From: Pseudomonas wuhanensis
GTDB taxonomy: Bacteria; Pseudomonadota; Gammaproteobacteria; Pseudomonadales; Pseudomonadaceae
Direction of reading: 5' to 3'
Length of the DNA stretch: 64,000 nucleotides
Assembly (NCBI RefSeq): GCF_030687395.1
Contig: NZ_CP117430.1
Span: 3,038,001 to 3,102,000, forward strand
The notes beneath the pieces are model-generated. The model was not told the origin of the DNA. It saw only the letters and a program-made list of their open reading frames with translations, and made no database searches. Below, in pieces: positions 43,402 through 48,604 of the stretch. The position numbers and the translations under genes were made by a program. Numbering within the stretch: the stretch's first letter is position 1; every line of letters begins with the position of its first letter.

Positions 43402-43520
43402 CGGCGATGTTTAAAAGACATTTCCAGATACTCACTGAGGCTACATATTCTTGCGCCGTTACCTACGACTGCGCCAGAATCCGCCGGCTAGTGCGCCTTG
43501 AGCCCGGGCTGTATCGTTTT

Positions 43521-43747
43521 CCCCGTCGCTGAAAAACAGCGATGGGGTTTGGTAGCCCCGGGTTATGCAAGGTGAAAGCATCACTATTTGCGGCGATTTC
43601 TCGTCTCTGCTTTATGGTGGTCATGCACAGGGCGCTTTCGAGCGCGCCGGTCTCCTTGCATCCCGGTCTACCAACCTGCGCATGGCCGCCACCCACCGTT
43701 TGGTAGCGAGGGTGATGGCTCCTTTTTACGATGCAAGGAGTTCCATC
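43521..43747 (+). promoter_or_regulatory. structured 5' leader with alternative pairings before the DUF6124 gene
   Basis: A stable hairpin (43521-43531 with 43537-43547, loop AAAAA) opens the leader. A central strand holds CTCCTTGCATC (43652-43662) and CTACCAA (43668-43674). Downstream, GATGCAAGGAG (43730-43740), which contains the gene's Shine-Dalgarno, is the exact complement of CTCCTTGCATC, and TTTGGTAG (43699-43706) complements CTACCAA. Upstream, TTTGGTAG (43548-43555) and ATGCAAGG (43565-43572) are second copies of both targets. The central strand can therefore pair upstream, freeing the ribosome binding site, or downstream, hiding it. GGCGC/GCGCC and CACCC/GGGTG hairpins fill the space between. 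No ligand or protein partner is known to me. Confidence 0.72.
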
Positions 43748-43748
43748 T

Positions 43749-44108
43749 ATGTTCAAACCAACACCCAATCCACCGGCACCCGACGACGTTTCCCCCTACG
43801 AATCCCTCGATTCAAAAAAACTCCACGAAGCCGCCGACCGCGCCCTCGACCACTACCTCAAACCGCCCACCCTCAAAGACACCAAGCGCAAACCCAGCAC
43901 CATTTACCATGTCGGTGAAAAGGTCGATAACGAAACCCTGCTGGTCAACGCCTGCGAAACCCTGGCGTCAGCGAGCATGATGCTCACTGAATTCGCCGGG
44001 CTGATGGAGATGCCGCATCGCAACATGATGCTGGGGATTCAATCGGTGGTCATGCTTGGGGAACTGGCCGTCAACCGGGTGCTGGATAACCTCGACCCGC
44101 AAGGCTAG
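43749..44108 (+). CDS. DUF6124-family protein
   Basis: The 119-residue protein starts MFKPTPNPPAPDDVSPYESL and continues SKKLHEAADRALDHYLKPP, the hallmark of DUF6124, a family seen mostly in Pseudomonas. The C-terminal half (LLVNACETLASASMMLTEFA, NMMLGIQSVVMLGELAVNRV) is predicted helical. AAGGAG lies eight bases before the ATG and is embedded in a perfect anti-Shine-Dalgarno pairing in the leader. Function is unknown; expression is likely controlled at translation, by inference. Confidence 0.82.
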   Translation: MFKPTPNPPAPDDVSPYESLDSKKLHEAADRALDHYLKPPTLKDTKRKPSTIYHVGEKVDNETLLVNACETLASASMMLTEFAGLMEMPHRNMMLGIQSVVMLGELAVNRVLDNLDPQG

Positions 44109-47119: not shown

Positions 47120-48262
47120 ATGAAAATCGTCATCGCCCCCGATTCGTTCAAGGACAGCCTGAGTGCCCAGGGTGTGGCCGAGGCCATTGCGCTGGGGTTG
47201 GCCGAAGTCTGGCCGGATGCACACTTGCTCAAGTGCCCGATGGCTGACGGCGGGGAAGGCACGGTCGAATCGATTTTGGCCGCGTGCGACGGCGAACTGC
47301 GCCGCACCCATGTTCGCGGGCCGCTGGGTGCCACGGTCGATGCCGCGTGGGGGTGGTTGCCACAGAGTCACACCGCGATCATCGAAATGGCCGAGGCCAG
47401 TGGCCTGCAACTGGTTCCGCCGAACCTGCGCGATGCCTGCACCAGCAGCACCTACGGCACCGGTGAGTTGATCCGCGCCGCGCTGGATGCCGGCGCGCAA
47501 CGGGTGATCCTGGCGATTGGCGGCAGCGCCACCAACGACGGCGGCGCCGGGGCGATGCAGGCCTTGGGTGTGAAACTGCTGGATGCTCAGGACCAAACCC
47601 TGGTGCCGGGCGGTCTGGCCTTGGCGCAATTGGCCCGCATCGATCTGAGTGAGATCGATCCGCGCCTGGCCAAGGTGCGCTTCGACATCGCCGCCGACGT
47701 CAATAACCCGCTGTGCGGCCCTCACGGCGCTTCAGCGATTTTCGGCCCGCAGAAAGGTGCGTCACGTGAGCAAGTCGAGCAACTGGACCACGCTCTCGGG
47801 CATTTTGCCGAACGCTGCGCGCAAGCCTTGGACAAAGACGTGCGCGATGAGCCGGGCAGCGGCGCGGCGGGCGGCTTGGGTTTTGCCGCCAAGGCGTTTC
47901 TCGGTGCGCAATTTCAGGCCGGAGTGGAAGTGGTCGCCGAACTGGTGGGGCTGGCCGAAGCGGTCAAAGGCGCCGATCTGGTGATCACGGGCGAAGGTCG
48001 TTTCGATGCCCAGACGTTGCGCGGCAAAACCCCGTTTGGCGTGGCGCGCATTGCACGGCAGCACGGCGTGCCGGTCATCGTCATCGCCGGCACGTTGGGC
48101 GAGGGGTATCAGGCGCTGTACGAGCATGGCATCGATGCGGCCTTTGCCTTGGCCAGCGGGCCGATGACACTGGAGCAGGCCTGCGCCGAAGCGCCGCGAT
48201 TGTTGCGTGAGCGGGCCCTTGATATCGCGCGGGTGTGGCGAGTGGCCGCCTGCAAGGCCTGA
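47120..48262 (+). CDS. garK: glycerate kinase
   Basis: The 380-residue type I glycerate kinase (GarK/GlxK family) phosphorylates D-glycerate to 2-phosphoglycerate. It begins MKIVIAPDSFKDSLSAQGVA and has CPMADGGEGTVES, IGGSATNDGGAGAMQALG, FGPQKGAS and TGEGRFDAQTLRGKTPFGVA. This closes a route from sugar diacids or glyoxylate to central metabolism, matching the CdaR gene upstream. GGAGAATTCGC precedes ATG 47120. A REP doublet follows. Confidence 0.94.
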   Translation: MKIVIAPDSFKDSLSAQGVAEAIALGLAEVWPDAHLLKCPMADGGEGTVESILAACDGELRRTHVRGPLGATVDAAWGWLPQSHTAIIEMAEASGLQLVPPNLRDACTSSTYGTGELIRAALDAGAQRVILAIGGSATNDGGAGAMQALGVKLLDAQDQTLVPGGLALAQLARIDLSEIDPRLAKVRFDIAADVNNPLCGPHGASAIFGPQKGASREQVEQLDHALGHFAERCAQALDKDVRDEPGSGAAGGLGFAAKAFLGAQFQAGVEVVAELVGLAEAVKGADLVITGEGRFDAQTLRGKTPFGVARIARQHGVPVIVIAGTLGEGYQALYEHGIDAAFALASGPMTLEQACAEAPRLLRERALDIARVWRVAACKA

Positions 48263-48286
48263 CTCAATCCTCAGCAGAAAGAAATC

Positions 48287-48421: not shown

Positions 48422-48604
48422 CCAGCCTCCCTCGAAAAATATTTCTCCAACCCCTGCAAAAAACCTCAACCCCGGCCGATACAGCTAACAGGCGCACACA
48501 AACCAACTACAACAGTGGCGCCAAGCTGAAAGGGTGCGCGCCATCGCCCGCCCGACAGTGATCACCGCAAGGATGCTCGCCGCCTCAATTACCGAGATCA
48601 TCCT

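Follow-up and report, generated by a model that had tools for sequence, protein, structure and literature searches.

A probable C4 antisense RNA cassette upstream of a DUF6124 gene in Pseudomonas wuhanensis, and its many relatives on Pseudomonas chromosomes

The leader of a DUF6124 gene on the chromosome of Pseudomonas wuhanensis is very probably a C4 antisense RNA cassette, made up of a promoter-like element, a hairpin with the target copies a1 and b1, the C4 RNA, the targets a2 and b2, and the DUF6124 gene, whose translation C4 would repress. We found it in a stretch of 64,000 nucleotides (positions 3,038,001 to 3,102,000 of NZ_CP117430.1), the whole of which is called the window here. Many similar loci are present in this and in other Pseudomonas genomes, and taken together they are best read as a chromosomal form of a known RNA family, multicopy and near-orthogonal, that controls proteins of unknown function.

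An Rfam scan of the whole window identified the C4 RNA (RF01695) with 81.1 bits, against a gathering score of 45 (E 2.5e-14). The match covers the entire structure of the model, and the C4 loop and junction are complementary to the Shine-Dalgarno sequence and to the upstream tag, respectively, of the gene behind, as in members of this family. Folded by itself, the C4 segment reaches -41.7 kcal/mol (z -4.44). Upstream of it, positions 43512-43563 match RF03163, the model of the "a1, b1 targets of C4 antisense RNA", with 35.4 bits (E 6.8e-8). The c4-a1b1 RNA described by Weinberg et al. 2010 (PMC2864571) has the same layout: upstream of C4, a first hairpin precedes a second, small one that carries the a1 tag. 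In the window a1 and b1 are complementary to the C4 that follows over runs of 7 and 8 nucleotides. However, the score of the window element lies under the curated cut-off of 46.7 bits, and we therefore say that this element works like a1/b1 and do not call it a member of RF03163. No riboswitch or other leader family was found in the window, where only C4 and two tRNAs reach Rfam gathering scores. A weak isrK match (27 bits, gathering score 50) covers the region of the leader hairpin at 43525-43589; isrK and C4 are listed side by side in Xylella fastidiosa.

The features of the cassette are collected in Table 1. Read directly from the sequence, the anti-b strand is an exact complement of b2 over 11 nucleotides, and the anti-a junction is an exact complement of TTGGTAG (43700-43706) over 7. 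Copies of both targets stand upstream of C4 in the same order as downstream of it. In 20,000 dinucleotide shuffles of the 228-nucleotide leader, the observed exact runs of b2 (11 nucleotides), a2 (7), b1 (8) and a1 (7) were reached singly 1, 20, 51 and 61 times, and all four were never reached jointly. The leader fold is more stable than all of 200 shuffles (z -4.95). This confirms that the four pairings are present and lie beyond chance.

Table 1. Elements of the C4 cassette and the gene behind it, in window positions
Feature	Position	Strand	Basis and remarks
Promoter-like element TAGTGC-N17-TATCGT	43489..43517	+	sequence; directly 5' of the leader hairpin
Stable leader hairpin, c4-a1b1 type	43521..43547	+	fold
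a1, upstream copy of the a target, TTTGGTAG	43548..43555	+	sequence; place corresponds to a1 of P1
b1, upstream copy of the b target, ATGCAAGG	43565..43572	+	sequence
C4 antisense RNA	43610..43696	+	RF01695, full length 1-87
anti-b (anti-Shine-Dalgarno), CTCCTTGCATC, in the 12-nt hairpin loop of C4	43652..43662	+	sequence and Rfam structure line
anti-a, CTACCAA, 7-nt junction of C4	43668..43674	+	sequence and Rfam structure line
a2, downstream target tag, TTTGGTAG	43699..43706	+	complement of anti-a over TTGGTAG; place corresponds to a2 of P1
b2, downstream target with the Shine-Dalgarno sequence, GATGCAAGGAG	43730..43740	+	11-nt exact complement of anti-b
DUF6124 gene, 119 aa, start codon ATG	43749..44108	+	PF19619

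The same parts are annotated in phage P1 (AF234172), where a putative a1 (48255-48261) and b1 (48269-48276) are followed by C4 (48343-48419), a2 (48423-48429), b2 (48452-48459) and icd, which starts at 48470; the annotation notes repression of icd-ant translation for a2/b2. The two Rfam models match the P1 record with 68.8 and 51 bits. As in the immI operon (c4-icd-ant) of P1 and P7, the order in the window is a1, b1, C4, a2, b2, start codon, the targets are placed around the start of the gene behind, and C4 lies inside the transcript that it would repress. With the first base of the C4 model as reference, a2 starts at +86 in P1 and at +90 in the window, and the start codon is at +133 and +139. 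The a1 tag is at -82 in P1 and at -61 in the window, where the upstream tags are thus about 20 nucleotides closer to C4.

A preliminary description of this leader, made from the window sequence, had proposed that a central strand pairs with a downstream Shine-Dalgarno target and tag, that copies of both targets lie upstream in matching order, and that a stable hairpin organises the remainder, and had held that no such element was described. Since the same parts occur in the same order in P1, and are represented in Rfam by RF01695 and RF03163, the claim of a new kind of leader falls. The pairing scheme itself stands, including the two sets of complementary targets and the hairpin.

There are nevertheless clear differences from the phage system. 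Here C4 is chromosomal, this genome having 48 matches and the richest of the counted genomes 55, and the gene behind it is a DUF6124 gene and not icd, with Bro-N (ant-like) genes following only two of the 46 scanned loci. With DUF6124 behind C4 and Icd unrelated to it, the locus falls outside the P1-type c4-icd-ant immunity operon. We considered P1 Icd as an ancestor of DUF6124 and rejected it, as the two have no profile similarity.

The P. wuhanensis genome (6.59 Mb, one contig) has 46 C4 matches over the cut-off and two below it, whereas 14 control genomes have none. It also has 39 DUF6124 matches, 33 of which have a C4 RNA on the same strand within 600 nucleotides upstream and six of which have none in that distance. 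A Pfam scan of the proteins behind C4 covered 46 of the 48 loci, the locus of the window (L007) among them and a locus with no open reading frame by our rule (L009) and an orphan C4 (L025) left out, and gave 33 DUF6124, two DUF3077 and two Bro-N proteins and nine with no match at 0.001; the reading frames were picked by rule, and those of L004, L033 and L045 may be wrong. In a genus-wide sample with the best 27 candidates per genome scored, C4 is present in 138 of 149 genomes and reaches at least 20 matches in 55 of them. Among 38 of these genomes, hand-picked to include low, zero and high counts, 33 have C4 (at most 55 copies) and 27 have DUF6124. C4 is present in all 27 genomes with DUF6124 and in six that lack it, and the two counts increase together (Spearman 0.955). 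Outside the genus the RNA is sparse: in a class-wide sample with the best 22 candidates per genome scored, C4 was detected in seven of 185 genomes including this one, with one to three copies in the others. On named Pseudomonas contigs, 79 of 80 DUF6124 genes, the best 80 of at least 528 matches, have a C4 RNA within 350 nucleotides upstream. The impression recorded in the preliminary description, that leaders of this kind are repeated in front of small Pseudomonas genes, is thus borne out by the searches of this genome, the genus and the named contigs.

DUF6124 genes are scarce in the phage and plasmid records searched. In a tblastn search with the window protein, a single one of 50,697 phage records matched, and none of the plasmid records did. 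The phage-record gene (L269, EU982300.1, 52-405) lies near the repressor gene prtR, at one edge of a prophage record from Pseudomonas fluorescens. For a syntenic comparison with empty sites, matching flanking genes were found in three of 19 relatives, the genome itself included, which is too few for such a comparison.

The window protein matches PF19619 with 71 bits (E 5.3e-20). Its AlphaFold2 model has helices at residues 61-83 and 90-114, with pLDDT 93-95 over residues 71-110, while the first 60 residues, which include a short helix, have pLDDT 52-66; the confident part of the model is a predicted C-terminal two-helix hairpin. A fold comparison of the model with the PDB gave no match at E 0.001, and the protein matched no known defence, phage or NCBIfam family. 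Among the 33 DUF6124 paralogues, three touch phrog_6327 (best E 0.0006) and one phrog_2114 (E 0.0015), neither of which has a given function. Five further C4-led proteins of 97-107 residues (L008, L043, L044, L046 and L048) have no Pfam family over the cut-off. A joint profile of these and the two DUF3077 proteins was compared with DUF6124, and the resulting hhalign probability of 54% is suggestive only; we did not accept the two groups as one superfamily.

Several loci depart from the common arrangement. The C4 RNA of L025 (G000:C1:6338349-6338435) is an orphan with no recognisable target or gene behind it. L049, L050 and the second DUF6124 gene in L002 keep the a1-type hairpin and have lost C4, and the DUF6124 gene of L052 has a truncated C4. 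In L006 (G000:C1:248501-248588) and L047 (G000:C1:5417431-5417520), the latter with a C4 score under the Rfam cut-off, C4 leads Bro-N antirepressor-like genes, an arrangement nearer to that of the phages.

Across the 48 loci of this genome, the targets change together with C4. For counts element by element, the register was fixed by position in C4. The loci carry 28 different anti-a 7-mers and 48 different anti-b loops, and these are tracked by a1, a2, b1 and b2. The a2 tag is an exact complement of its own junction in 30 of 48 loci and has at most one mismatch in 46; for a1 the numbers are 30 and 44. Among non-cognate pairs with a different junction, exact matches make up only 0.6% (a2) and 0.3% (a1), and matches with at most one mismatch 12.8% and 14.5%. 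A run of at least 7 nucleotides joins the loop to b2 in 34 of 48 loci (2.0% of non-cognate pairs) and to b1 in 26 (1.2%), leaving 14 and 22 loci, respectively, with no such run. When the C4 pairing scores are summed, the own downstream target is strictly the best of the 48 in 33 loci and the own upstream stretch in 28. With a register-free score, none of 10,000 permutations reached the observed mean for either the upstream or the downstream partner; the loci are related by descent, and permutation counts of this kind are not exact probabilities. A comparison of whole-window energies gave no clear preference for cognate partners (downstream best in 11 of 48 loci, upstream in 22). Over long windows, pairing among the conserved stem sequences obscures such energies, and the register-aware tests took the place of this comparison.

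The same covariation is observed in other species. In 79 loci on named contigs, drawn from the best 80 of at least 528 matches, runs of at least 7 nucleotides were found for b2 in 51 (3.9% of non-cognate pairs) and for b1 in 34 (3.4%), and none of 5,000 permutations each reached the values for b2 and b1. The corresponding numbers are 31 and 11 of 47 loci in genome G062, and 35 and 22 of 52 in genome G049, for which 53 of 55 matches were retrieved and all of these but one (L267, not orientable) analysed; a further genome, G018, was searched and its sequences are not included. In each of the three genomes, fewer loci keep b1 than b2. The upstream partner is real but less well kept than the downstream one, b1 above all. 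Covarying pairs in both alternative helices and repeated placement before DUF6124 genes, which the preliminary description had named as the support to look for, are thus both found, among paralogues and in other species, and the two pairings that would hide or free the Shine-Dalgarno sequence both exist and covary with the central strand.

For the mode of action we draw on phage P1. According to Weiss et al. 2016 (PMC5320573), RNase P releases P1 C4 from a longer transcript as an antisense RNA of about 77 nucleotides, which then binds the mRNA that it targets; the b' loop of C4 partly covers ribosome-binding sites, and the a' stretch gives specificity. By analogy, the transcript in Pseudomonas would contain its own antisense RNA. 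The C4 loop would pair with b2 and its Shine-Dalgarno sequence and the junction with a2, and translation of DUF6124 would be blocked. RNase P probably excises C4, which would then act on other copies of the same transcript, and pairing within a single transcript may also take place. The ends of the RNA fit putative RNase P processing to about 77 nucleotides: GG stands at the position of the P1 cut in 47 of 48 loci and CCA within the last 12 nucleotides in 42. The upstream copies a1 and b1 could occupy C4 instead, which would delay or weaken repression. We infer that the gene is repressed by default, with a1/b1 tuning or delaying this repression. A promoter-like element related to that of the window, TTGTGC-N17-TATCGT, occurs at 29 of the 48 C4 loci and in three of 48 control stretches, by an expression that was written after looking at the sequences, and 28 of the 29 elements sit 88-110 nucleotides before C4. 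A scan of the window stretch with a stricter standard consensus found no promoter.

The preliminary description had pictured a two-state leader acting in cis, in which C4 is never released and pairs within one transcript either upstream (gene on) or downstream (gene off). We consider this rather unlikely. In favour of such a switch, a1/b1 and a2/b2, each covarying with C4, are in competition for the same strands, and the mean pairing energies of loop and junction over the 48 loci are of the same order (-21.6 kcal/mol downstream and -20.0 upstream; -27.3 and -22.2 in the window). However, the P1 RNA is released as an antisense RNA according to PMC5320573, and the RNase-P-like ends are kept here. 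The downstream partner is also the stronger in 30 of 48 loci (p 0.009), and the off state of a switch would therefore tend to dominate. Nothing was found that points to a signal for flipping the fold.

In the antisense reading, the codes by which each C4 recognises its target can be compared between loci. We defined a strong match as a2 with at most one mismatch together with a b2 run of at least 7. Cognate pairs are strong in 34 of 48, 30 of 47 and 34 of 52 loci of the three genomes, whereas strong off-target pairs number only 6 of 2,256, 5 of 2,162 and 5 of 2,652 (0.2 to 0.3%). The anti-Shine-Dalgarno loops are all distinct within each genome (48 of 48, 47 of 47 and 52 of 52 analysed). Judged by complementarity, each C4 matches mostly its own target only. 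This scarcity of off-target pairs makes it improbable that the loci form a network in trans, in which the C4 RNA of one locus regulates the DUF6124 genes of others, even though some DUF6124 genes have lost their own C4 and a few candidate pairs exist. The orphan C4 of L025 matches the target of L028 with a 10-nucleotide loop run and a junction with one mismatch, and it may act on that target in trans; an exact-pattern search of the genome for a target of this RNA found none. Weaker matches, with 7 nucleotides of loop and a one-mismatch junction in stretches of 160-200 nucleotides, link the C4 of L019 to L049 and that of L001 to L050.

The codes differ even between close paralogues. In 28 paralogue pairs of this genome with at least 80% protein identity, mean identity is 91% for the protein, 77% for the C4 scaffold and 55% for the loop, and the loops are no more alike than the background of all pairs (52%). 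In the three genomes, among 133 of 147 loci (those with a small reading frame), pairs with at least 60% protein identity have identical loops in 0 of 268 cases within genomes and 7 of 336 between genomes (Fisher p 0.019), and near-identical loops in 2 of 268 and 16 of 336 (Fisher p 0.003); these pairs are not independent, and those between genomes mix orthologues and paralogues. At like protein identity, mean loop identity between and within genomes is 0.55 and 0.52, 0.56 and 0.55, and 0.58 and 0.56. Values so nearly equal mean that similar proteins from different genomes, too, mostly have different codes, which speaks against a strong reading of the contrast. What emerges is that paralogues differ and that a small number of codes are retained by descent, and the data alone do not prove selection for difference. 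A more speculative and less likely reading is that many Pseudomonas chromosomes carry an array of about 20 to 50 autonomous cassettes with private codes, most of them with a small protein controlled by its own C4 RNA, whose specificities have been driven apart within one genome and each of which would silence only itself. The codes of plasmid antisense copy control diversify in a parallel manner. Such an array would amount to self/non-self recognition at the level of RNA: a cassette with a resident specificity would be silenced on arrival or duplication, and only copies with a new code would be expressed and kept.

It is very doubtful that the loci are decaying phage-derived repeats with no function. 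Behind two of the C4 copies lie genes for Bro-N antirepressor-like proteins, as in phages, some copies have a lost or truncated C4, L001 is shortened, and L009 has no open reading frame of at least 35 codons by our rule. Against this, an open reading frame is kept in 47 of 48 loci by the same rule, and as many as five elements of a locus show compensatory changes, at dozens of loci and in several species, which contradicts decay. A metabolite riboswitch or thermometer that merely resembles C4 in shape would also be a leader with alternative structures before a gene, and it is the least credible reading of all, with C4 at 81 bits, no riboswitch over the cut-off, and, in the 28 close paralogue pairs, variable pairing loops on a better kept scaffold, the reverse of a ligand pocket.

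The closest precedent for C4-like RNAs in many copies is in Acinetobacter baumannii. As with the Pseudomonas loci, the Group 1 sRNAs described there are numerous in one genome, have a variable specificity region and are apparently processed, according to Weiss et al. 2016 (PMC5320573). There the targets of this multicopy family are proposed and not established, whereas in Pseudomonas a complementary target and a gene stand directly behind most C4 loci. The same source states that the 2010 study predicted C4 in Pseudomonadales. Among the titles and abstract openings that our literature search gave, none concerned multicopy C4 loci in Pseudomonas, with most subscription journals and the supplement of the 2010 study outside its range, and an earlier mention may exist; the search found no paper on DUF6124. 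The scale of C4 copies on one chromosome, most of them directly before DUF6124 genes, did not appear in the literature searched.

C4 has been known as a phage immunity RNA; here 48 matches are found on one chromosome, most with a complementary target and a gene directly behind. The loci provide a regulatory context for DUF6124, a family of unknown function, and a test bed for the evolution of antisense specificity after duplication. Dozens of them are also candidates for orthogonal translation switches, a natural collection that may be usable as a toolkit.
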